Positions 1-34,663 of a stretch of DNA of 35,160 bases are shown piece after piece. Position 1 is the first letter of the stretch. Each line of letters opens with the position of its first letter. Source of the DNA: a virus. Below the pieces are notes generated by a model that made no database searches, was not told the origin of the DNA, and saw nothing but the letters and a program-made list of their open reading frames with translations. The translations under genes were made by a program, and so were the position numbers. The stretch is taken from positions 1-35,160 of IMG/VR virus record IMGVR_UViG_3300044632_001288; one strand, 5' to 3'.

Positions 1-994
1 TTGCAAATTTTAACTGCTGTGATTCTTCCAGCAAAACACTATCTTTTTTATAAGTTACATATTCAATTTCAACAACTTCATTTTTATTTGGATGATTTTT
101 TATAAAATCTTCTATTTGGTATTCCAAATGTTTTTTATTCATCTCGTCAGTTGCTTTTGAAATAATTGCATCGACACCAACTTGTTCACCACATTTAGCC
201 AATGCTCTATTATCTCTAGGAAAACACGGTCCACCAAATCCAAATCCGGGTTTAATATATTTAGTTCCAATTCTAGAATCTGTTCCAACTGCCTGCAATA
301 CAACATTTGCATCACAACCAAATCTTGTTGCAATATCACCAACCATATTTGCGTAACTTATTTTTGTTGTTAAAAAACAATTTACAGCTAATTTGGTTAA
401 TTCAGCTTCTGTGCGTGACATTTTATTATATGTTGGTCTAGATTCTACCATATTTTCATATATTGATTGTATCAAATTTCCTGCATATTCATCAGCTTGA
501 CCTATTAACACATTATCACACAACAATTGGTCTTTAATGATAGAACCTTGAGCAATAAATTCTGGATTGTATGAAACATGGTAATTGCAATCAACAAGCT
601 TGGCATGAAGTGTGTCACAATATCCGGGAAACGTAGTGCAATTTATAATTATATCTTTTCTTTTTGATTGTTTCCCAAAAGATATAAGTTGTTTTGCAAT
701 ATTTTCAATTTGTGTATGATCATATTTAAAATCTGTCGTAGATGGAGTTGCAACAACAACAAATATTACATCATTTATTATTGCATCCGCAATACTGGTT
801 GAAAAATTTAATTTTGTAGATTTTTTTAAATAATCATTAACATATTGCTCTTCGCTACAAAACGTTTTTAAAATTAAGCTATTAACATAATTTTTATCTT
901 TGTCAATACCTAAAACATCATATCCTTTACGTTCAAGGTTTAAAGCTAGACACAACCCTAGCTTACCTACACCAATTATTGAAATATTTTTCAT
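1..994 (-). CDS. UDP-glucose/GDP-mannose dehydrogenase family protein (C-terminus cut by window edge)
   Basis: Translating from the ATG at 994 gives an open frame of 331 codons to the window edge. The N-terminus is MKNISIIGVGKLGLCLA, a Rossmann NAD-binding GxGxxG motif. Around residues 250-260 is GFGFGGPCFPRD, the catalytic-cysteine motif of the family (Cys257 by my count), followed by the start of the C-terminal domain (YVTYKKDSVLLEES). Members oxidise the C6 hydroxyl of a nucleotide sugar to a uronic acid using two NAD+. The GGPCFPRD form looks more like UDP-glucose dehydrogenase than the UDP-ManNAc dehydrogenase type (GGHCI), but the substrate is not certain. About 60-100 residues probably lie beyond the left edge. 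It is the last visible gene of the minus-strand glycan cassette and starts 1 nt after the NAD synthetase stop. Confidence 0.88.
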   Translation of the reverse strand, partial: MKNISIIGVGKLGLCLALNLERKGYDVLGIDKDKNYVNSLILKTFCSEEQYVNDYLKKSTKLNFSTSIADAIINDVIFVVVATPSTTDFKYDHTQIENIAKQLISFGKQSKRKDIIINCTTFPGYCDTLHAKLVDCNYHVSYNPEFIAQGSIIKDQLLCDNVLIGQADEYAGNLIQSIYENMVESRPTYNKMSRTEAELTKLAVNCFLTTKISYANMVGDIATRFGCDANVVLQAVGTDSRIGTKYIKPGFGFGGPCFPRDNRALAKCGEQVGVDAIISKATDEMNKKHLEYQIEDFIKNHPNKNEVVEIEYVTYKKDSVLLEESQQLKFA

Positions 995-995
995 A

Positions 996-1778
996 TTATT
1001 GTTTGTTATTTTTTAATTTATATACTGGAATAGAAATCATTTTATGTTTGTTTTTAGAATTATACATTTTATAAATTTTAATTACTTGTTTTTGCCTGTA
1101 TGTTAAAGATGATTCGGGAAAATTTATATTTTCCATTGCCCATTCTAATTCTTCGTAAGACGCACCAATTTGTTGTTCATCTGTACGATCATCATCCCAC
1201 AGCCCATCTGTAGGTGCTGCTGTAATAATTTCATTATAAACTCCCAAACATTTACCCAATTCTCTTACATCTGTTTTCGACAAATCTGCTATTGGTGAAA
1301 TATCTACTCCACCATCGCCATATTTAGTAAAAAATCCTACACCAAAATCCTCAACTTTATTTCCAGTTCCTACAACCAAACCCAGATGTTCTGTCGCAAC
1401 ATGATATAAAGCCATCATACGATGTCTTGATTTTGTATTGGCATTTGCCAATTTATTATCAATGTTTAATTGCGTTTTTATTGAATTAAAAAATTTATTA
1501 TAAGCGTCAGATAAATCTAATTTAATGTATTTTACATTTGAAAACTTTGAAGATAACCATTTACAATGTTTATCTGATAAATTTGTATTTTTTTCAGTAG
1601 ACAAAATTGGAATATTTAATATTATTACGGGCATCAATGTTTTTGCACATAGTGTAGAAACTACAGCAGAATCTATGCCTCCAGAAACACCAACAACAAA
1701 AGTTTTTAAATTGTTTTTTATAAGATATGTTTTTAACCACTCACTTATATCAGAAGCAATGTAATCATAATTTTTCAT
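996..1778 (-). CDS. nadE: NH3-dependent NAD+ synthetase
   Basis: Converts deamido-NAD (NaAD) plus ammonia and ATP to NAD+. The ATP-pyrophosphatase signature VSGGIDSA is near residues 31-38, and GTGNK followed by FFTKYGDGGVDISPIADL (near 138-163) is the classic NadE core. Length (260 aa) fits the short ammonia-dependent form without a glutaminase domain. I prefer the ATG at 1778. It overlaps the upstream stop as ATGA and has GGA about 7 nt upstream. The in-frame ATG at 1790 would add MDFI and has no clear ribosome binding site. It sits inside a glycan operon, next to an NAD-consuming dehydrogenase. A role in restoring NAD+ during infection is an inference. NadE-like enzymes occasionally occur in polysaccharide loci, so a pathway-specific amidation cannot be excluded. 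Confidence 0.9.
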   Translation of the reverse strand: MKNYDYIASDISEWLKTYLIKNNLKTFVVGVSGGIDSAVVSTLCAKTLMPVIILNIPILSTEKNTNLSDKHCKWLSSKFSNVKYIKLDLSDAYNKFFNSIKTQLNIDNKLANANTKSRHRMMALYHVATEHLGLVVGTGNKVEDFGVGFFTKYGDGGVDISPIADLSKTDVRELGKCLGVYNEIITAAPTDGLWDDDRTDEQQIGASYEELEWAMENINFPESSLTYRQKQVIKIYKMYNSKNKHKMISIPVYKLKNNKQ

Positions 1779-2635
1779 AATAAAATCCATTCTTTGGGGA
1801 AAAAACCATCACGTTCATGAGTAGTATAATCCAAATGATAATTTGATGGTGCTATTACTATTTTATTTGGGTTGGGGTTTACATAACCAGCCCACCAACC
1901 AAAAGTTGAACTATGCGAAAGAATGTTGTAATCACATGACATTATTCTGGAATAATCTGTTACCGGATTGTTTGATGCAGCAACTATAAAATTATCCGAT
2001 TTAAAATATCGTTGTGCCCATTCTATATCTTCTTTATCATCTCCTGTAGTACTTCCTCCAGTAAAAATTAAAAAAACAAAATCATCTTTTTTAGAAAAAT
2101 AATTTAAAGCTGAATGCAAATAACTTCCAAATTCACTAGATGGGTCAAACGGATTATCACGATATAAAGGAGTACTGGGAGTTGATCTATCACTTAAATC
2201 ACCTCGTCTAATATGAATGCTGATTGCTTTTCTTCCTTGTTTTATAGAATCAACATATTCTTTAGCACTTTTTAAATAATGTTCTTTTGGTATTAATTCT
2301 TTTTTAATATCATTTTCAATATTATTAAAATATTTTGTATTTTGAAAAAAACCAAATAAATTTGTACCATCTGTAACATTTAATATGTGATCGTAATAAT
2401 ATCCACTTGGTTCTGGTTCAAAAATTGTTTTATATATTAGATCTGTTCCAGATAATCTTTCACAATTTATTTGAAATTCATTTAATAAACAATTTTGACC
2501 GTGCCACGTTCTATTTTCTGTAAAAGGTATTTTTGGTGTTAAATTATATTTTTTTGCTAAACCTTTTAAAGTTGCATATTGATAAAATTGATTTCCAAGT
2601 CTACCCCATTCGCCCAATTTAGTAAATGTAATCAT
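1775..2635 (-). CDS. Glycosyltransferase family 11 (alpha-1,2-fucosyltransferase-like)
   Basis: The N-terminus contains GRLGNQFYQYA, the central part has HIRRGD (about residues 141-146), and the C-terminal part has SHSSTFGWWAGY (about 240-251). These are the three hallmark motifs of GT11 alpha-1,2-fucosyltransferases, where the Arg-rich HxRRGD motif binds GDP-fucose. Length of about 286 aa is normal for the family. I choose the ATG at 2635, which has GGGA five nt upstream and follows the previous stop by one base. A GTG 15 nt further up (2650) is possible but lacks this ribosome binding site. The acceptor sugar is unknown. It is co-transcribed with other glycosyltransferases and so probably helps build one oligosaccharide. 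Confidence 0.85.
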   Translation of the reverse strand: MITFTKLGEWGRLGNQFYQYATLKGLAKKYNLTPKIPFTENRTWHGQNCLLNEFQINCERLSGTDLIYKTIFEPEPSGYYYDHILNVTDGTNLFGFFQNTKYFNNIENDIKKELIPKEHYLKSAKEYVDSIKQGRKAISIHIRRGDLSDRSTPSTPLYRDNPFDPSSEFGSYLHSALNYFSKKDDFVFLIFTGGSTTGDDKEDIEWAQRYFKSDNFIVAASNNPVTDYSRIMSCDYNILSHSSTFGWWAGYVNPNPNKIVIAPSNYHLDYTTHERDGFFPKEWILL

Positions 2636-2636
2636 A

Positions 2637-3332
2637 TTATTCCCAAACACAAATTTTATTTAAATCTTCTGATCCATACAAATAACCACGCTTAAATCCT
2701 TCAAAACCAAGCCAAGGATTTAAAGTAGATCCAATATCCATATACGTGTTGTTTTTATTGTGTTGCCACATTTTATATGCCAATATATTACCAAAAGGCC
2801 CTGCGGCAAATAAATATAACTCACCTTGAGTGTTTAGTTCTTTTAATTCTTCAATTAAATCAAGATTCTCTACCCAAGCATTTACTTTGATTGGATAAAA
2901 TCGTTTTACATCAAAAGGCAATTTTGTTATATCAGATTTTTCATTTGCTATCAGATTAACAGTCCAATTTTTATATTCTGGAATAAAGTTATCTTTATAA
3001 AAGAGATAATTTGAGTTTACAAATATATTTGCATACGTAAGATTTTCCTCGTCTTGACCGGAAATAGTTTTCATTTGCTGATGTGCTTGTCCTTGGCAGC
3101 AAGGACAGCTAATTCCTACAAAATAATTTGGATCTTTGTAAACAAAAGATTCTCTCAAAAGTTGAATTGAGTTTAAGGTTTTTTCTGATGAATCTGCTTT
3201 AAACTCACCATTATATACTGGGAACTGATTCATTGCCATCCATTCGCCGTCAGCATATTTGCTAAATGCAAATGGTTTTTTGGAAATCAATCGTGCAAAT
3301 AGTTTTTCAATTTCAGGTTTAAATAATTTCAT
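2637..3332 (-). CDS. Putative GT-D-fold (DUF1792-like) glycosyltransferase
   Basis: The N-terminal segment FAFSKYADGEWMAMN resembles the (F/R)xxDGE motif of GT-D glycosyltransferases, in which the DGE acidic pair coordinates the nucleotide sugar. The C-terminal part AAGPFGNILAYKMWQ followed by MDIGSTLNPW resembles the GP(L/F)G...IDIG motif of the same group. A CPCCQ cluster near residue 87 is unusual. The 231-aa length is compatible. It overlaps the end of the epimerase gene by 14 nt and ends one base before the GT11 start, so it is translationally coupled on both sides. The assignment rests on motif memory only. The alternative is a hypothetical protein of the same cassette. Confidence 0.55.
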   Translation of the reverse strand: MKLFKPEIEKLFARLISKKPFAFSKYADGEWMAMNQFPVYNGEFKADSSEKTLNSIQLLRESFVYKDPNYFVGISCPCCQGQAHQQMKTISGQDEENLTYANIFVNSNYLFYKDNFIPEYKNWTVNLIANEKSDITKLPFDVKRFYPIKVNAWVENLDLIEELKELNTQGELYLFAAGPFGNILAYKMWQHNKNNTYMDIGSTLNPWLGFEGFKRGYLYGSEDLNKICVWE

Positions 3333-4314
3333 TTGTATATTGTTTCAACGTTTTAATAATTTTTTCCACGGCTTTACCGTCGCCATATGGACATGTTTCA
3401 CTTACTTCGTAGTATTTATCAAAGTCTTTGATACATTCTCTTATGCAAATTGGTTCAAATGCCAAAACAGAAAATGTCCCAAGACCTTCTTTTCTTTCTG
3501 TTTCTTTTCTCACAACTATTGTTCTTTTTTTAAAAAAAGATGCTTCTTCTTGAATTCCACCGCTGTCGGTTATGATAAACTTGGATTGTTTTAATAAATT
3601 TATCATGTTTGGATAAGTTTGCGGAGACATTACAGAAATATTTTTAAAATCGTTATCAACAGTTATAGATGGGTGTTTGATGTATACAAAATTTAAATGT
3701 TTAAAATTTAAAGCCACCTCATCTATTGCTTTTAATACTTTTTCAATTCTATCTTTATTTTCTCTTCTGTGTAGAGTAATAGGAATGGTATTTCCATAAA
3801 ATACATTTTCATTATCCAAATTATCCAAAACAGTATTACCAACAACATGAATTGTTCCGTTTACTTTTTCATTTTGTAATACCTGTTTATTTAATTCCGA
3901 AACACAAAAATGCATGTCAGCCATGTTGGAGATGCATTTTCTATATGTTTCTTCTGGATATGGATTTTCTTTATCCCAAGTTCTTAATCCAGCTTCTATG
4001 TGAATTATTTTTATTTTGTTGTGAAACGCATTTAAAGCTATACCAAAACTTGTTGCTGTATCACCTTGGACAATTACATATGTTGCATTTGATGCAAATA
4101 ATTTACTGTTTAAAGTTTGTTGAATAATTGAATTTAATCTATTATTGTCGCTGATGTGTATGTCTACCAATCTGTCAAAATAACAATCTTCAATTAATGT
4201 GGTGTGTTGATTTACTTTTACCAGTTCACATTCAAAATTTGCATTTTTCATTTCTGTATAAAGTTTATACAGTTTTATGTATTCTGGTCTAGTTCCATAA
4301 AAAATAGATATCAT
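3319..4314 (-). CDS. wecB: UDP-N-acetylglucosamine 2-epimerase (non-hydrolysing type)
   Basis: Interconverts UDP-GlcNAc and UDP-ManNAc. Family motifs in order: GTRPEYIK (7-14), VQGDTATS (82-89), IHIEAGLRTW (104-113), PEETYRKCISNMAD (about 120-133), VGNTVLDN (158-165), HRREN (182-186) and ITDSGGIQEE (248-257). These correspond to the UDP-binding and catalytic segments of the WecB family. At 331 aa it is somewhat shorter than the bacterial enzymes (about 370 aa), with the difference spread over loops, and no key motif is missing. The gene starts two bases after the GT2 stop. Together with the dehydrogenase at the left edge it suggests that a modified amino sugar or uronic acid is supplied to the glycosyltransferases here. 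Confidence 0.9.
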   Translation of the reverse strand: MISIFYGTRPEYIKLYKLYTEMKNANFECELVKVNQHTTLIEDCYFDRLVDIHISDNNRLNSIIQQTLNSKLFASNATYVIVQGDTATSFGIALNAFHNKIKIIHIEAGLRTWDKENPYPEETYRKCISNMADMHFCVSELNKQVLQNEKVNGTIHVVGNTVLDNLDNENVFYGNTIPITLHRRENKDRIEKVLKAIDEVALNFKHLNFVYIKHPSITVDNDFKNISVMSPQTYPNMINLLKQSKFIITDSGGIQEEASFFKKRTIVVRKETERKEGLGTFSVLAFEPICIRECIKDFDKYYEVSETCPYGDGKAVEKIIKTLKQYTNEII

Positions 4315-4315
4315 T

Positions 4316-5071
4316 TTATGCTCTTAATAATTTAAATCCACTGTCAACAGACTTTGAAAGTTCCATAGCCATCATTTGCCCACCAGATAAGCGCATATTA
4401 CCAAATTGGTATAAATTCATGGATATTCCTTCAGCACTATGTCCATAAGGTTCTCCCTTTATACTTCCCCACATTTCCATATCATTCGCTGGGTGTGGTG
4501 GAACATAAACACCTTGATTGGTGTATTTTTGTATCATTTTAGCAAAATGAATATCTTCACCTACAATTGGTATTTGATTTGTTGGTGGAAGTTCTCTCCA
4601 AAAAACAGAAAGAAGATCCCTGTGAAAAAACCAACAATGTCCTACTATATCAACTTTTTCAACTGTTTCATTTGGCTTACACCAACCTAAACGCTCTACT
4701 TTATTCCAAGTATAATACTTGTCACCAAAAATTACACCAACTGTGCCAAGCAAGCCCGGATGGGTTTTGTATGTGTTTAGGCAATTTTCAATCCATTTGG
4801 TTCCCGGTATCGTATCATCATCAAAAATTGCAATATAGTCTGATCGACAATTTAAAGCCAATGCAAATCTTGCCCATACACCTAAATTTTGATTACAGTC
4901 AACAAAAATAACATCATCTTTTTGAGACTGTTCTATGGGTTCAGAATCAGATTTATTTTGCCAAACAAATATTTCATTGATTGGTACTGATTGATTTTTT
5001 ATGGCTTGCTGTTGTTCAGCAAACCATCTTGTTCTACGATATGAATTTAAAACTATTGAAACGGTTTCCAT
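4316..5071 (-). CDS. Glycosyltransferase family 2-like
   Basis: Begins METVSIVLNSYRR, the beta-strand opening of GT-A family 2 enzymes. DYIAIFDDDTIPG with DDD at 84-86 is the metal and nucleotide-sugar binding DxD-type motif. GEDIHFAKM (about residue 170) matches the position of the ED(x)D catalytic-base motif. At 251 aa it consists of a single GT-A domain without membrane segments. Start ATG 5071 shares one base with the upstream GT32 stop (TAATG), so translation is coupled. The donor and acceptor are unknown. Confidence 0.8.
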   Translation of the reverse strand: METVSIVLNSYRRTRWFAEQQQAIKNQSVPINEIFVWQNKSDSEPIEQSQKDDVIFVDCNQNLGVWARFALALNCRSDYIAIFDDDTIPGTKWIENCLNTYKTHPGLLGTVGVIFGDKYYTWNKVERLGWCKPNETVEKVDIVGHCWFFHRDLLSVFWRELPPTNQIPIVGEDIHFAKMIQKYTNQGVYVPPHPANDMEMWGSIKGEPYGHSAEGISMNLYQFGNMRLSGGQMMAMELSKSVDSGFKLLRA

Positions 5072-5685
5072 TAATAATCAAAACCACTGTTTGGTGTGGT
5101 CCCCCAATATTGTTTTGCGTAAATTTTTCCTTCTCCTGAATACTCTATACCCGAATAATGTCTTGGTATAAAATACCAACTTGGATATACTGTGATAGGA
5201 TATTTTGTTCTGTAAACTGTATTTGTTAGTAACATAGGCCCAGTAATAGCCCAAGTTTCCAGTGGGTGATAATTCATATTTGGAAATTGGATTATTTGAT
5301 CCATTATCACATTCATCAATTGGCAATTTTTTTCACAAGCCAAATAACCATTTGCCATTAAGCCTGTTCGAACTTGTTCATTTTCCCAACAACAAAAAAC
5401 TTTATTATTTGTAAAAAAATCATCAAGTGAATTTACACATTCAGAGTCCGCATCAATAAAAAAACCACCTTCATCGTGCAAAATTTGATATCTTAAAATA
5501 TCAGCTTTTCCCGGAAGGGATGGGCATTCATCAAATTGCTTTTTGCACTTTAATTTTGGTAGGTTATCGTCTGTCCAAAGTTTATGTTGCCAAGATGGAT
5601 TTTTTTCAATCCATGTTTCAATAAACTTTGAAGGTCGTTTTGATTGGTCTCCCAACCAAATTTGGTGTATAATTTTTGGAATCAT
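5071..5685 (-). CDS. Glycosyltransferase family 32-like (DxD sugar-binding)
   Basis: Starts MIPKIIHQIWLG, the typical N-terminus of GT32/capsular-type glycosyltransferases (Pfam Gly_transf_sug). It carries GKADILRYQILHDEGGFFIDADSE (written here as overlapping pieces GKADILRYQ and GGFFIDADSE), where D78-A79-D80 is the DxD motif. At 204 aa it is a compact member. It is the first gene of the minus-strand glycan cassette. GAGA lies 6-10 nt before the start, and a candidate late promoter (AATAAATA) lies about 45 nt upstream, in the region shared with uvsY. Confidence 0.85.
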   Translation of the reverse strand: MIPKIIHQIWLGDQSKRPSKFIETWIEKNPSWQHKLWTDDNLPKLKCKKQFDECPSLPGKADILRYQILHDEGGFFIDADSECVNSLDDFFTNNKVFCCWENEQVRTGLMANGYLACEKNCQLMNVIMDQIIQFPNMNYHPLETWAITGPMLLTNTVYRTKYPITVYPSWYFIPRHYSGIEYSGEGKIYAKQYWGTTPNSGFDY

Positions 5686-5722
5686 AAGATCTCGCAGCTA
5701 TTATAGAGTATCAAAAACTAAA

Positions 5723-5742
5723 GTCAAATATATTTATTTGAC
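5723..5742. repeat. Perfect inverted repeat between divergent operons
   Basis: GTCAAATA (5723-5730) and TATTTGAC (5735-5742) are perfect reverse complements around a 4-nt centre. The element lies in the 92-nt gap between the glycan cassette (left) and uvsY (right). It overlaps both the candidate minus-strand AATAAATA promoter and the -35 hexamer of the candidate plus-strand promoter, so it is well placed to be an operator. No binding protein can be named. Confidence 0.6.
5731..5738 (-). promoter_or_regulatory. Candidate late promoter for the glycan cassette
   Basis: Reads AATAAATA on the minus strand, one mismatch from TATAAATA, with a predicted leader of roughly 40 nt to the GT32 start at 5685. 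It lies inside the inverted repeat. Confidence 0.35.
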
Positions 5743-5765
5743 TATTACTAAAGAGACTTTATATT
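5738..5765 (+). promoter_or_regulatory. Candidate sigma-70-like promoter for uvsY-uvsW
   Basis: TTGACT (5738-5743), a 16-nt spacer and TATATT (5760-5765) give one mismatch to each consensus hexamer. The predicted start is only about 6 nt before the uvsY ATG, so the leader would be very short. Confidence 0.4.
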
Positions 5766-5777
5766 ACATCTCAAAAG

Positions 5778-7750: not shown

Positions 7751-8413
7751 ATGTCCGACACACTTCCTGAGAATGAATTCTCAGGCGCATTGCGAATTGT
7801 AAAGCTTACCTCCGGAGAAGAATTAATTGGAATGGTAAGCGAATATGCGCCAGATAAAATAAACATAAAACTACCAGCTCTTTTAGAAAATTATTATACA
7901 AGAGGGCAAAAAAATGAAATGGTAGAATATGTAAAACTTACAAATTATTTGTTAAATGTCAAAGGGTATGAAGTCAACCTTCCAAGATCTGTAATTGTTT
8001 ATATTGGTATACCGGCCATAGAATTAGAAAAAATGTATGAAGTATATTTTATGGCTATGCAGTCTGATTCAAAAACAATTATAAGTTCTGGGCCAGAAGA
8101 TGAAATTGGTTCTGAAAATGGTTTGCAACTTTTGAATGATTTGTTCAATAATCCAGATTTTGTAAATTTTGTAAATGATCTTATTGACAATTTTGAAGGT
8201 GTAGAAATTTTAGATGATTCTGATGATGAAGAATGGGACGATGTAGTTGCAGAATCGCCTATAAGCCCTCCGGAGGAAAAGCCGTCCGAAGATGCTCCTA
8301 AGAAGAAGAAACGCAAGGCGATGAAGCCTGAAACGAATAAGCTACCTTATAAACCGGAAGCCAACCCAAATACACCAGAGGGTTGGTCAGACAATCCCTT
8401 GGACTATATTTAA
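7751..8413 (+). CDS. Probable Sm-like phage protein with acidic and lysine-rich tail
   Basis: Residues about 12-45 (LRIVKLTSGEELIGMVSEY, then INIKLPALL) look like the first strands of an Sm/LSm-type barrel, as seen in small proteins found across marine T4-like phages. Residues about 195-210 of the structural numbering are preceded by an acidic run (DDSDDEEWDD) and then a basic run (PKKKKRK), followed by a Pro/Asn-rich end. The 220-aa product has no membrane segment. It has one of the strongest ribosome binding sites in the window (GGGAGG, 7 nt before ATG) and its own candidate late promoter. Its stop is two bases from the stop of the convergent tube-like gene. The function is unknown; an RNA- or DNA-binding role is inference. 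Confidence 0.55.
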   Translation: MSDTLPENEFSGALRIVKLTSGEELIGMVSEYAPDKINIKLPALLENYYTRGQKNEMVEYVKLTNYLLNVKGYEVNLPRSVIVYIGIPAIELEKMYEVYFMAMQSDSKTIISSGPEDEIGSENGLQLLNDLFNNPDFVNFVNDLIDNFEGVEILDDSDDEEWDDVVAESPISPPEEKPSEDAPKKKKRKAMKPETNKLPYKPEANPNTPEGWSDNPLDYI

Positions 8414-8415
8414 AC

Positions 8416-8952
8416 TTAATTTTTTAAATTTGATGGAACTGGGTCTTCTTGATCGCCAGCCCAAAGATCAAAATACGAATATTTAAATGTACAATTGGTT
8501 TTTTGAATTATTGCATCAGCACTATCTGCCTGAAATTGCATACCATTTAATTTTACTGGAATAATATAATTAAATTTTGCTCTTAAAATTTCACAGTTTG
8601 TTGTAGGATCATATAAAAACAAATTTGCCTCATGGTGCCAAGATTGATATAGAGCATTGTGTTCCGTATCATTTTTGATATTTGTAATATTGCGAATCCA
8701 CGAATAAATGCTCATCCAGTTTGTCAAATCCGAATCAACTATAAATTCAACATTTAAAGTTTCAAAATTTGCTACCATAGTTGGTACTGGAATTGTTGTA
8801 CCAAGTGTTGTGGGTTGCGGTTGATCGGGAACAGAAATACCCGGAAGATTTGCTCTCTGACACATCAGTTCCATCTGTTTGGTCCCACGACCAAATACCA
8901 GACGAAAATAACTGTTATACATCGGGTTAGTGTTTGATGAACATAAACTCAT
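8416..8952 (-). CDS. Tail-tube-fold protein downstream of gp23 (possible gp3-position gene)
   Basis: 178 aa. The segment NFETLNVEFIVDSDLTNWMSIYSWI and the closing FKYSYFDLW (quoted in parts: VEFIVDSDL, NWMSIYSWI) match the beta-strand/helix pattern of the tail-tube family seen in gp19-like and baseplate tube proteins. The length equals that of the two gp19 genes in this window, but the sequence is clearly diverged from them. The position directly after gp23 is where marine T4-like phages carry a tail-completion gene usually labelled gp3, which is a plausible alternative. It has its own late-type promoter 5 nt before the ATG and follows the gp23 terminator, so it is an independent transcription unit. 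Confidence 0.55.
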   Translation of the reverse strand: MSLCSSNTNPMYNSYFRLVFGRGTKQMELMCQRANLPGISVPDQPQPTTLGTTIPVPTMVANFETLNVEFIVDSDLTNWMSIYSWIRNITNIKNDTEHNALYQSWHHEANLFLYDPTTNCEILRAKFNYIIPVKLNGMQFQADSADAIIQKTNCTFKYSYFDLWAGDQEDPVPSNLKN

Positions 8953-25132: not shown

Positions 25133-27136
25133 TTAACCGGTATTTCCACCAGTATTGCCCCCGTTAGCTCCTCCGGTACTCCCAGTATTCCCGGAGCTGG
25201 GAATCGTACAGCAACCGTCAAACGCATTTTCTGCCGTAAAGTAGTAAACGTAATTATTGCCATCAGTATACTTACATAGCTTTACAATATGAAAAATATC
25301 TTCTCCGATAGAGAGTGTTGTAGCTTTTGCACCAATTGGTCTCAATTTAAATCCAGCTGGGGCACAGCTGCTTATATATCCAGTTGGGATATATCCAGTG
25401 GTCAAGCCTCGTTCATTCAAATTTATGGCCCATGTATCGTCTTGAGTATTAGAAGATTTTAATATATCAAATCCCCATTTTTCAACTTGATAGAATAAAT
25501 CTATTCCACAAGATCCACCCGATGCACCCGAACCACCAGAATTTCCTGTTCCACCCGATATACCAGAAGTAGATCCCGTTGTTCCTTCAAAAGACAATTT
25601 ATTCCATTTGTATCTGTATTTTTTTCCTACAGAGTTTCCTGCAGGACAATTGCTATCTTCCTCATAACGCAATAATGCTGCAAAGAAACACTCTTCTTCT
25701 TTTTTACCCATGCAACACAAAGAATACATTATAAAATTTTGCAATTCTATTCTTCTAATTTCTTCAAGTCTAGCTGCAGCACCAGATGCACCGACAAGAT
25801 TTTCAGCTAAAAATGCGTTGTATCTAATATTCATTACTTTTTGTAAATACGTATTTACACCCGGAACAAGTGCAGCTGAACCAACACTATCTGGATAATT
25901 TGGATGGACTTCCGTCATATCAAACATGTTTTTCCACATTTCTGTGTTATCAACAAATTGCATGTAACCAGATGAACCCATAAAATTCATCTTAGAGTAA
26001 ACATTTTGTGTTCCAAAGTTTTGTCCAATCAAACTATGATGTGATGCATCGTTAATAGCATCTAAACCATCATAATAACCCCAATGAGGTTCGTATACTA
26101 CTTGTTCTGCACCGGGAACAGCTATGCCAGTTCCATCTGTATCTATTAGTTCAATATTGTACTTTTGACCTTCGTCTTGAAATTGATACATTAACGATTT
26201 ATAGTTATATGAATCAATATCATCTGGAGAGGTTATTCCTGATGGAATTAGATCTAAAACTTTTGGAGTTTTCTTTATGTAATAATAGTTCTTTGATATA
26301 AATTGATACGCTGGATTGGTTGTGAAGAAATAAGCTTTTCTATAAACTTTTTTATCTGAAAGTTTTTGTATAACAGCATCACCATCAAGAATGCCTATTC
26401 GTCTGTAATCTGCATCCAACGTTGCTGCACTAGGATCATCTTGTGGATTTCTATGAAAATATTTAAAATTTACAGTTCCATCAAATTCAGTCCAAAACAT
26501 GTATTGTGGTACACCATATTGAACTCCAGCATGGACGGTACTCACTGCACTAGAAGCAAGATAATTTAAATAATCAATTGGGTTGTCTGCAACTGCTTCT
26601 TGTCTATCATAAAAAGTATTTAAAGGTCTATACAAAACATAATTTGATGTTGGGTCTGAATATCCCGAAGCTCCATTAAATGCTTTTTGTTTTACTAAAT
26701 TTACAAAGTCATTTACCAAATAAACATTTGGCTTTTTGATGTTTAAAATTGTATTTAAAGATGTTTTTTGTACAGCAGTATAGTATGGATTAGATATGTA
26801 AATTCCAACAAAGTTTTCTTCAGTATCAGATGCTGCGTTATTTAAATAGCTGACACTTGTTACTACGGTTGGCCATTTATTTCCATTAAAAAATTCTATT
26901 ACTACTTTATCAATATTATACTGTTTTATTCTTCCAACAATATCTTTTGTATCTCTTACTATGACAACACCACTGGGAAAAACATCGTTAATGTTTTCTA
27001 CCAATTCTAATCTTTCAAATTGGCATTCAGTATTTTGTATTAAAATATTAACAGATTCTGAGTTATAGCTACTTTGTAGATAAATGGCTTTAACCGTAGA
27101 ATAAGCTGGATTAAATTCACCTTGTGTATTTGGCAT
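25133..27136 (-). CDS. Large baseplate/hub-like virion protein with collagen-like linker
   Basis: 667 aa. The N-terminal block (ILIQNTECQFERLELVENIN, DVFPSGVVIVRDTKDIV) and long beta-rich body suggest a tail-hub (gp27-like) protein, but no decisive motif was recognised. Residues 518-542 form a G-x-(S/T) collagen-like tract (ISGGTGNSGGSGASGGS) and the last 20 residues are also Gly/Asn/Thr-rich. Cys pairs occur near the C-terminal domain (SLCCMGKKEEECF, FDGCCTIP). It sits between the gp53-like gene and the 271-aa gene. Large proteins at this place are known as VrlC-type in some marine T4-like phages; I cannot confirm homology. Confidence 0.6.
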   Translation of the reverse strand: MPNTQGEFNPAYSTVKAIYLQSSYNSESVNILIQNTECQFERLELVENINDVFPSGVVIVRDTKDIVGRIKQYNIDKVVIEFFNGNKWPTVVTSVSYLNNAASDTEENFVGIYISNPYYTAVQKTSLNTILNIKKPNVYLVNDFVNLVKQKAFNGASGYSDPTSNYVLYRPLNTFYDRQEAVADNPIDYLNYLASSAVSTVHAGVQYGVPQYMFWTEFDGTVNFKYFHRNPQDDPSAATLDADYRRIGILDGDAVIQKLSDKKVYRKAYFFTTNPAYQFISKNYYYIKKTPKVLDLIPSGITSPDDIDSYNYKSLMYQFQDEGQKYNIELIDTDGTGIAVPGAEQVVYEPHWGYYDGLDAINDASHHSLIGQNFGTQNVYSKMNFMGSSGYMQFVDNTEMWKNMFDMTEVHPNYPDSVGSAALVPGVNTYLQKVMNIRYNAFLAENLVGASGAAARLEEIRRIELQNFIMYSLCCMGKKEEECFFAALLRYEEDSNCPAGNSVGKKYRYKWNKLSFEGTTGSTSGISGGTGNSGGSGASGGSCGIDLFYQVEKWGFDILKSSNTQDDTWAINLNERGLTTGYIPTGYISSCAPAGFKLRPIGAKATTLSIGEDIFHIVKLCKYTDGNNYVYYFTAENAFDGCCTIPSSGNTGSTGGANGGNTGGNTG

Positions 27137-32385: not shown

Positions 32386-33363
32386 ATGCCATCACCATCA
32401 CCGTTTGGTCCACAAGATGATAACGTAATTATTGAAACAGGCGGTTTGACATTCTTTGTCGCCACAGATTCTGTCGTATTTGCTGGTGTTACGGCACAGT
32501 TCCAATTACAAAAATTGGCATTTGGTCCTACTGGTTCTGCCCAAATTGTTGACTCCTCCAATGGTCTTCCTGTAAATGTTATTGCTGGTGGTATAACAGC
32601 CAATCTAGTTGGATTCTGTGGTGCGGTTCAAGGTATTGTTGGTGGAACACCGGTAACTGTTGATGGAACAGTTTATGTTACTGGTATAACAAGCGCACCA
32701 GCCTATGTTAGAACTGCTTCAGGTTATCAAGTAGAAATCACAGGTGGTGTACCACTAAACAAAACAAAAGATGCAATTTCTGTATTCGGGCCATCTGGAA
32801 GCACGTGGATTTACTCCAATTTAGTAAATTCATCTGGAACAGAAATTGGAAATTCTGCAAATCCAATGTTTGTTCAAATAAGTGGAGCAACAATCAATGC
32901 CCTTATCAATCCTATTGTGGGAGTAACAAATAGTGCTTTTTCTCCGTTGTTTATATCAGGTGTATGCGGAGCAACTGCAGTTTCAGTCAATGTCGGAAAT
33001 ACTGTTGGTGTAAATGATACCGCCATTCTTACGGGAATGACTGCAATTTACGGTCAACTTTTGTCATTAAATTTGGGATTGGCTACGGCAATGCCAACGG
33101 ATTTCAAAACCGGAAGAACATCTTCTACATATCCAGCAGTACAACAACTAGATTCTGGTTACACCTGTGGCAAGGGAGTTTCAATAAAGGCACTTTCAAC
33201 CAACACAGATTTTGTTTATATTGGTAATTCCGGTTCTTTCTCTGGAAGCGTAGGTCACGCTTTAGATCCCGGTGATAGTGTTTTCTTGACAATTAGTAAT
33301 TTAAATAAAGTTTACATTGTATCTGCAAGTTCTACACAGACAGTCACATACATAGCTTCATAA
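32386..33363 (+). CDS. Probable virion structural protein, beta-rich (unidentified)
   Basis: 325 aa, Gly/Ser/Thr/Val-rich with almost no charged clusters, the composition of phage surface proteins. The last 90 residues (SGYTCGKGVSIKALSTNTDF, VYIGNSGSFSGSVGHALDPG then DSVFLTISNLNKVYIVSASS) form a pattern common at the ends of phage virion or decoration proteins (GV.IKA...t..VYIG......G..L.PG.sv.l.i.n...vY). The N-terminal two thirds contain repeating V-G/T beta motifs. A late promoter and AAGGAAG ribosome binding site precede it. Function (head decoration, whisker or fibre) cannot be decided from the sequence. Confidence 0.65.
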   Translation: MPSPSPFGPQDDNVIIETGGLTFFVATDSVVFAGVTAQFQLQKLAFGPTGSAQIVDSSNGLPVNVIAGGITANLVGFCGAVQGIVGGTPVTVDGTVYVTGITSAPAYVRTASGYQVEITGGVPLNKTKDAISVFGPSGSTWIYSNLVNSSGTEIGNSANPMFVQISGATINALINPIVGVTNSAFSPLFISGVCGATAVSVNVGNTVGVNDTAILTGMTAIYGQLLSLNLGLATAMPTDFKTGRTSSTYPAVQQLDSGYTCGKGVSIKALSTNTDFVYIGNSGSFSGSVGHALDPGDSVFLTISNLNKVYIVSASSTQTVTYIAS

Positions 33364-33367
33364 AATA

Positions 33368-34663
33368 ATGTTTAATCCTACATTAAATAATGTAAGAAAT
33401 TATAAAAATTATGGTATTTCCGTATATGGAAATACCTATGATCCTGTATTCACAAAAGGTTGGTTAAATTCCAGACCAAATATTTCTATATCTGGAACAA
33501 CTTGTTATTTTGATTACTCAAATATTTTTGATACATCTGATAGAACTTTCTTAAAGAAGACTTTTGGTGTAATACCAGCAGGCACAACTTTTTATGTTTC
33601 AGATATACAATACTACGATGAAAATGCAAATTATCGAACCGTAGTAGGTGGAACATGTTTATTCAACTCCACATTTAATGATGGAAAAGTAATTATAGGA
33701 AATGTTGTAAGCGGATTTACATTTAATCAAAATTACAATTTCTTTAGTCAAGAAAATATTGTAACTGCTCCACAATACCAATTTTCTTACACCGGTTCTA
33801 CGGGCTTTAACTATATTTTAAATCAATTCCCAAATGTAAATCAAACCAATCTAAAAAGAATGGGATTTTTGGGAAATAAATTTAATTTTGAAGAATATGT
33901 TGAAATATCTGGAGCAACAGGATTGAATTACGGCAAGTTAAAAATAGATTCTGTAATAACTCTAAAAGATTCTCAAGAAGCATTATATTTAACTGGAACT
34001 GCCCAAAATCAAAATCTAACACAAACTGCAACTGAACTAAAAATGTTTATTCGCGGTGGCTCAGATGTTGATGAAATTCAAAAACCACAAAATGTTTTGG
34101 GAATTTACCGTATTCACAACTCTGATAACCAATTGGTAAATTGCTACGAAAACCAAAACGAATATCAAGTACATTTAAGAAAACAAACTTTGGGGTCTAC
34201 TTATAGTGGTTATTGGGTTCAATGCGAATCTTGTCCAACAACAGTATACGGAGAAGATGTAGCAGTTGAAGACTTTATATCAAACATGTTGTTTGATAAT
34301 ATGTTGTTTGTTTATATAAACACAACAGTCACAACATCATTCCCCGATTTTACTCCTGTATACAATAGAACTTTGTTAACACAAAGAAACTTTACGGGAA
34401 ATCCGCAAAATGCTTCTTCTCTCACATTCTCAATTAGAACAGGTCTAAAAATAGACTTGAGCCATTCATCTTTACAAAACTGGAACTTTGAAGTTTATAT
34501 TGATCCTGCATATACAGTTCCTCTTTCGGTTGGATTTGTAAAAACGGGAACTCCGGGTTTTAATAATGCTTTTGTTTTAGTACAAAGAAATGAAAATACC
34601 CCAAATCAACTTTATTGTAAATTTGTGGGTCCATCTGTTCTTCCACTAACTCTTAGTATATAA
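33368..34663 (+). CDS. Probable virion protein of unknown function
   Basis: 431 aa, not recognised. It is Asn/Phe/Tyr/Thr-rich and predicted mostly beta (NISISGTTCYFDYSN, QYQFSYTGSTGFNYILNQF, VYINTTVTTSFPDF). It begins MFNPTLNNVRNYKNYGISVY. Starts 4 nt after the previous stop with no Shine-Dalgarno, so it depends on coupling. It ends directly at a strong bidirectional terminator. The pair is late-transcribed, separate from the main structural block, so it probably encodes accessory surface or fibre components. Confidence 0.55.
   Translation: MFNPTLNNVRNYKNYGISVYGNTYDPVFTKGWLNSRPNISISGTTCYFDYSNIFDTSDRTFLKKTFGVIPAGTTFYVSDIQYYDENANYRTVVGGTCLFNSTFNDGKVIIGNVVSGFTFNQNYNFFSQENIVTAPQYQFSYTGSTGFNYILNQFPNVNQTNLKRMGFLGNKFNFEEYVEISGATGLNYGKLKIDSVITLKDSQEALYLTGTAQNQNLTQTATELKMFIRGGSDVDEIQKPQNVLGIYRIHNSDNQLVNCYENQNEYQVHLRKQTLGSTYSGYWVQCESCPTTVYGEDVAVEDFISNMLFDNMLFVYINTTVTTSFPDFTPVYNRTLLTQRNFTGNPQNASSLTFSIRTGLKIDLSHSSLQNWNFEVYIDPAYTVPLSVGFVKTGTPGFNNAFVLVQRNENTPNQLYCKFVGPSVLPLTLSI

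Follow-up and report, generated by a model that had tools for sequence, protein, structure and literature searches.

Gene content of the operon

The subject of this analysis is a run of sugar genes at the left end of IMG/VR virus record IMGVR_UViG_3300044632_001288, whose full 35,160 bases are hereafter called the window. These genes probably serve to coat either the host cell or the virion with sugars. Two of them, side by side, encode a nicotinamide adenine dinucleotide (NAD+) synthetase (NadE) and a UDP-glucose 6-dehydrogenase-type nucleotide-sugar dehydrogenase (UGDH). Genes for UvsY, UvsW and T4-like head, portal, terminase and baseplate proteins stand beside the sugar genes, which lie close to the head-gene module. 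As the record is shorter than any T4-like genome, it represents a genome fragment, and the portal protein, which is ~49% identical to those of both cyanomyoviruses and Pelagibacter phage Mosig, points to a marine T4-like myovirus as the source.

Seven minus-strand open reading frames (ORFs) occupy positions 2–5685, spaced, in order of position, by +1, −16, −14, −14, +1 and −1 nt, with 30.2% G+C against 35.4% in the remaining window. The original prediction, made from the DNA letters alone, had described a seven-gene glycan operon; the seven packed ORFs are there, although only six of them had been named, and the seventh is NadE. The operon opens with a GT32-like glycosyltransferase of 204 residues (5071–5685; Gly_transf_sug PF04488, DXD sugar-binding region, 41.5 bits), followed by a GT2-family glycosyltransferase of 251 residues (4316–5071; Glycos_transf_2 PF00535, 37.2 bits) and a non-hydrolysing UDP-N-acetylglucosamine 2-epimerase of the WecB family (3319–4314; 331 residues, Epimerase_2). 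The epimerase passes the wecB model TIGR00236 marginally, with 210.4 bits for a cut-off of 210.15, and its residues R9, K14, D85, E107, E121 and H182 are invariant in 9/9 homologues. The fourth ORF (2637–3332; 231 residues) matched no family in the first scans and reached 19.3 bits with Pfam GT-D PF08759 (E 0.0011), under the gathering score of 27. Its AlphaFold model (mean pLDDT 88.7) gave the DUF1792/GT-D structure 4phr as the top solved match (E 4e-5, TM 0.60), and D28-G29-E30, which we take to be the acidic DxE motif of GT-D glycosyltransferases, is invariant in 11/11 homologues. By this modelled fold, the protein is assigned to the DUF1792-like GT-D glycosyltransferases, which bears out the GT-D-like call that had been made previously.

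The distal part of the operon begins with a GT11-family glycosyltransferase of 291 residues with a GTG start (1775–2650; Glyco_transf_11 PF01531, 64.2 bits). It overlaps NadE by 16 nt, and judging from coordinates this overlap recurs identically in viral loci L008, L010, L014 and L016. NadE itself (996–1790; 264 residues) is predicted to be of the ammonia type, with an NAD_synthase domain (PF02540), an SGGIDS motif and 184.9 bits with TIGR00552, above the cut-off of 63.65. UGDH (2–994; 331 residues) lacks its C-terminal end, which is cut by the contig end; it contains the UDPG_MGDP_dh N-terminal and central domains, matches phrog_9148 and scores 226.4 bits with TIGR03026, above the cut-off of 189.8. 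Its closest solved relatives are UDP-glucose/GDP-mannose dehydrogenases, and K201, N205, C257 and D261, presumably the catalytic residues, are invariant in 28/28 aligned phage homologues.

Association of NadE with UGDH in phages

Viral loci were gathered around NadE, UGDH, the epimerase and a neighbouring SDR enzyme, as the best 80 of 417, at least 572, 385 and at least 571 relatives, and cellular NadE loci as the best 80 of at least 579. UGDH was found on the same strand within ~8 kb of NadE in 64/80 NadE-anchored viral loci; the gap was at most 150 nt in 47, and NadE came first in 44 and UGDH in 20. Conversely, 68/80 UGDH-anchored loci contained NadE, which was adjacent in 54. Among the 160 epimerase- or SDR-anchored loci, both genes were present in 20, UGDH alone in 19, NadE alone in none and neither in 121 (Fisher p 5e-15, the loci being not all independent). 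Many loci are short or cut by a contig end, such as L194 and L051, so that a scored absence of NadE or UGDH may reflect a missing end. Clustering of NadE at 80% identity yielded 85 clusters, 79 with and 6 without UGDH, in a set that includes the UGDH-anchored loci and is thus biased towards the pair. In a further set of 78 diverse loci, which were chosen as UGDH-linked and exclude the window, NadE and UGDH were present in 78 and 77, respectively, and the informative part is the contrast with the third family, GT11, which was found in 57.

Six isolates likewise carry NadE and UGDH in a same-strand glycan operon: P-TIM68, HTVC008M, S-SSM7, Bellamy (with a methyltransferase between the two), S-SCSM2R and Sf-FS3. 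Unlike in the window, the surrounding transferases are different, and the first four genes of the operon are absent from the annotations of these isolates and from a phmmer check of L002–L005. The literature searched yielded no description of a NadE-UGDH pair in phages.

Two further gene types were observed in these runs. A conserved SDR enzyme (66–87% identity), which we take from its motifs to be GDP-mannose 3,5-epimerase-like, occurs in UGDH-bearing clusters (L043, 5889–6929; L007, 9875–10927; L084, 15365–16498; L167, 6971–8002), directly beside UGDH in 3/4 loci, and reached no NCBIfam model at cut-off. A gene labelled CN hydrolase lies in the NadE-UGDH run of three loci (L409, 8764–9624; L212, 9999–10844; L242, 10009–10902), the label being unconfirmed by Pfam or PDB matches. 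As a candidate glutaminase partner for NadE, the CN hydrolase-labelled Sf-FS3_225 was rejected, since neither Pfam (at 1e-3) nor PDB (at 0.01) gave a match; relatives of it were found in two other loci only.

Identity and probable substrate of NadE

The nearest cellular relatives of the phage enzyme, at up to 56% identity, belong to a NadE subfamily of Flavobacteria, marine Euryarchaeota and Desulfobacterales that shares its invariant positions. In cells, unlike in phages, no UGDH was detected by phmmer or a UGDH profile in any of the 80 closest loci, which reach at most 9 kb to either side and in several cases far less, nor were any of the other six cassette genes found around these NadE genes. 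The genomes of close cellular relatives held exactly one full-length NAD_synthase match in 12/12 cases, others being partial. Taken together, the single copy and the lack of UGDH suggest that this subfamily is a housekeeping one in cells.

The N-type ATP pyrophosphatase motif SGGxDS (S36, G37, G38, D40 and S41) is present in 113/114 phage and 80/80 cellular sequences, and of 85 cell-invariant positions, 74 are kept at ≥90% in the 114 UGDH-linked phage NadEs. The relaxed positions (44, 62, 64, 75, 120, 149, 165, 210, 214, 217 and 218) show mostly conservative changes; residue 64 is Ser in the window and Gln in cells. For the site that binds nicotinic acid adenine dinucleotide (NaAD), Y32, R137 and Y144 of Bacillus subtilis NadE, which we take to be NaAD contacts, were placed by alignment, and the position of human Y525 was presumed from D530/C531 and a known motif. 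The mapped NaAD-site residues Y22, R122, Y129 and F153, as well as E147, K156, D159, H249 and K250, are each kept in 111–114 of the 114 UGDH-linked phage enzymes. The role of human Y525 used for this mapping is that given in an excerpt of PMC6946656.

In a tree of 186 of 206 sequences, retained after a 90% identity filter, phage NadEs fall mostly apart from cellular ones, with 4 label changes against ~60 for shuffled labels. Phage NadEs without a nearby UGDH adjoin other genes and are interspersed among the UGDH-linked ones. This interspersion and the kept NaAD-site residues favour the ordinary substrate, and a true NAD+ synthetase acting on NaAD is the most probable identity of the protein. 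The best PDB match, 3fiu, presumably the nicotinamide mononucleotide (NMN) synthetase NadE* of Francisella, had suggested the latter activity, which was given less weight because Tyr22 is kept while 3fiu has Ser. This adenine-side tyrosine may thus separate NAD+ from NMN synthetases, a distinction drawn from one sequence.

Several NadE genes with no UGDH in reach have other neighbours. In L078, a nicotinamide phosphoribosyltransferase (NAMPT) gene precedes NadE by 2.6 kb (3681–5300 and 7857–8783), a candidate NAD+ synthesis cluster. NadE adjoins a Cpn60-like chaperonin gene in L069 (5560–7953) and lies near DUF2201 genes in L056 (5533–8735) and L082 (129–2287). The NadE of L050, likewise without UGDH, is near an AAA_28 gene. 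In L057 (4121–5674), NadE has an additional C-terminal part of ~270 residues with no Pfam match.

Recombining core and variable distal genes

DNA comparison indicates that what had been presented as a single cassette is actually two modules. The first comprises GT32, GT2, epimerase and GT-D (2637–5685, minus strand) and, on the evidence of these alignments, is a core that moves between phages by recombination. Locus L251 shares with the window only positions 2642–5687, at 83.9% DNA identity; its UvsW is 47% identical, its neighbouring genes differ and its flanks are without similarity. In L249, a near relative with a core 80–94% identical, DNA similarity to the window ceases at 2643, where the GT-D gene ends, with different ORFs beyond. 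The island adjoins uvsY and uvsW, as in the window, in L248, L249, L253, L255 and L258, all reached via the epimerase. The core is located elsewhere in the genome in L251, L259 and L260, and also in L007, where the epimerase has moved. Across six relatives, GT2 is 74–96% and GT32 79–93% identical. In L253, L255 and L258, GT32 and GT2 remain 74–96% identical, with the epimerase down to 51–62% and GT-D to 27–34%. The start of the island is therefore constant and mobile, and variation grows away from it.

The second module begins in the window with GT11, NadE and UGDH and is truncated by the contig end, so the predicted cassette is incomplete: within the stretch examined, the seven core-bearing relatives with enough sequence run on beyond the core for 11–12 further same-strand ORFs. 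Their 72 distal proteins, for which the family listing gives 25 of 38 families, are mostly of glycan kinds. They include 10 FkbM methyltransferases, six SDR epimerases and four GT2 proteins, besides other methyltransferases, aminotransferases and diverse transferases. That close relatives exchange these distal genes is more in keeping with an antigen-like glycan exposed at a surface. In phage sugar clusters, half-length DegT-type aminotransferases of 205–212 residues were observed in L007 (3229–3846) and L084 (12804–13442), 70% identical to each other, and an acetyltransferase domain is fused to a DegT stretch in L189 (2321–3385).

Upstream of the core, a promoter-like site, TTGACT-16-TATAAT (5700–5727, minus strand), has 11/12 consensus matches and stands back to back with a uvsY promoter-like site (5738–5765, plus strand; 10/12 matches). 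The four promoter-like sites in the region are not above the number in shuffled sequence (2.5 ± 1.7). The facing TTGAC boxes (GTCAA in the uvsY −35) and TATA(A/T)T are nevertheless kept in 6/6 aligned phages, window included, though the intervening bases vary, which points to host-type (sigma-70-type) transcription; the scan did not extend to late phage promoters. The GTCAA...TTGAC inverted repeat common to both divergent sites (5690–5770, 6/6 phages) could also be an operator.

Proposed function and alternatives

The reading that we favour, with reasonable confidence, is that of a phage surface-glycan island that supplies its own UDP-uronate and carries its own NAD+ synthetase. In this scheme, the sigma-70-type promoter-like site would drive an operon that opens with the four-gene core and goes on, past the contig end, with the variable module, the window holding the proximal half of the island. 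Judging from their families, the epimerase would make UDP-N-acetylmannosamine (UDP-ManNAc), UGDH would convert UDP-glucose into UDP-glucuronate, using two NAD+ for each sugar, and assembly of a short oligosaccharide would fall to the transferases. The variability of the distal genes suggests that the product is under selection on host cells or virions, as an O-chain- or lipopolysaccharide (LPS)-like modification or as virion decoration, and that new structures may arise when the genes after the constant start are exchanged. The co-occurrence of NadE with UGDH is observed; NadE would probably keep UGDH supplied with NAD+ during infection. A WecB/WecC-like route, in which epimerase and dehydrogenase together yield UDP-N-acetylmannosaminuronic acid, is disfavoured: the UDP-ManNAc dehydrogenase models give UGDH 85 and 54 bits, lower than the AglM and TuaD models, most loci with UGDH lack the epimerase, and only 16 of 80 epimerase-anchored loci contain UGDH.

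Several points weigh against the favoured reading. UGDH falls below every equivalog cut-off (AglM, 166 bits for 670; TuaD, 149 for 700), so that these models point to no single sugar substrate. Since UGDH recycles NAD+ without consuming it, there is no evident need for a dedicated synthetase, and NadE alone should raise NAD+ little if NaAD is limiting. An NAPRT/NAMPT family member was absent from 10/12 NadE-bearing phage records tested, which may be incomplete, so that what a phage would gain metabolically from NadE by itself is hard to see. UGDH without NadE was found not only in the 19 epimerase- or SDR-anchored loci but also in 12/80 UGDH-anchored ones, and the loci are partly non-independent, several contigs recurring between scans. 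Finally, the family scans, which covered 24 of the 40 ORFs of the window, named no lipid-carrier transferase, flippase or ligase that would indicate the glycan acceptor.

Supply of NAD+ to UGDH ranks first among the explanations for NadE, and amidation of uronate is a serious rival, albeit an unlikely one in our estimate. A repurposed NadE would adenylate and amidate the carboxylate made by UGDH, giving a uronamide sugar in a two-step pathway. NaAD and UDP-uronate are both pyrophosphate-linked nucleotides with a carboxylate, and the chemistry of NadE, according to the portion of PMC3376133 consulted, is an ATP-dependent carboxylate amidation. The link is specific: NadE goes with UGDH, whichever of the two comes first, and never with other sugar genes alone. 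The scarcity of NAPRT/NAMPT genes would fit as well. This explanation was originally our first choice and was lowered by the residue comparison, the single copy in cells and the interspersed tree: the UGDH-linked enzymes keep the mapped NaAD site as housekeeping enzymes do, and one of the interspersed UGDH-free phage NadEs is that of L078, with NAMPT nearby. The known uronamide enzymes are, to our knowledge, asparagine-synthase-like rather than NadE. The fuller proposal, that NadE turns UDP-uronate into UDP-uronamide and that the recombining glycan island has spread this route between phages, is slightly less likely again; no UDP-uronamide route to amidated surface sugars was found in the literature searched. 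That the cassette adds sugars to phage DNA bases, as the original prediction had allowed, is very improbable. T4-like phages do glycosylate DNA bases, but the families present are surface-glycan kinds, and neither the 24 scanned window ORFs nor the relatives' family lists (25 of 38 families for the distal proteins) included a hydroxymethylase or DNA glucosyltransferase. The earlier statement that the window contains no DNA-base hydroxymethylating enzyme thus holds for those 24, the other 16 being unscanned. The part of the original prediction that is supported is a compact operon, carried by a phage, whose genes supply sugar nucleotides and transfer sugars.

The other purposes suggested, glycosylation of virions and remodelling of the host surface, cannot be told apart with the present data. 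Attachment of the glycan to the fibres or capsid of the virion, and not to the host surface, is a less likely reading, though a real possibility. The proximity of the island to the head genes argues for it, as does the combination of several transferases without lipid-carrier enzymes, which would suit short protein-linked glycans. Against it stand the other genome places occupied by the same core, the host-type promoter-like site and the published view, in the parts of PMC7029224 and PMC7824862 consulted, which for related phages favours a change of the host O-chain against competing phages. It is also rather improbable that NadE acts against host defences that deplete NAD+ and is found in the island merely because cargo genes collect there. 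Such a role has been proposed for other phage NAD+ synthesis enzymes, in the same part of PMC7824862, and NAMPT lies near NadE in L078; yet NadE is bound to UGDH and not to islands generally, as the lack of NadE-only cases in the 160 loci indicates, and most records tested have no NAPRT/NAMPT gene.

Relation to known systems

Cyano- and pelagimyophages carry LPS/O-chain genes, including UDP-glucose 6-dehydrogenase and glycosyltransferases (PMC7029224 and PMC9602691, in part). They resemble the phage described here in being marine T4-like phages with glycosyltransferases, sugar-nucleotide enzymes and UGDH. The excerpts consulted differ in describing no four-gene core, uvsY-linked promoter or NadE-UGDH pair, and "NAD" appears nowhere in that of PMC7029224. 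In jumbo phages, NAD+ is synthesized by NAPRTase and NMN adenylyltransferase (excerpt of PMC7824862); NAD+ synthesis is phage-encoded there too, but the enzymes and route differ and that excerpt describes no tie to sugar genes. Like the island, bacterial O-antigen loci open with a constant part, vary towards the distal end and contain methyltransferases, aminotransferases and epimerases. The family lists of the relatives, within their coverage given above, name none of the Wzx/Wzy O-antigen components (flippase, polymerase and initiating transferase), and the window is cut. Elsewhere in the window, the large ORFs at 25133–27136, 32386–33363 and 33368–34663 have no PHROG or Pfam match.

The NAD+ synthetase, the two-module build and the specific NadE-UGDH partnership go beyond what had been noted for this DNA. 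Phage sugar genes are usually catalogued singly, under auxiliary metabolism. Those described here are organized as an island whose start recombines, whose promoter-like site is conserved and whose ends can be swapped, a build that suggests a route by which marine phages may alter a surface glycan quickly. While a phage glycan island is a known kind of cargo, the partnership of NadE and UGDH within it is unexplained: either a cofactor would be fed to one sugar enzyme, which ordinary NAD+ metabolism would not lead one to expect, or a new sugar substrate would have been acquired by a housekeeping enzyme.

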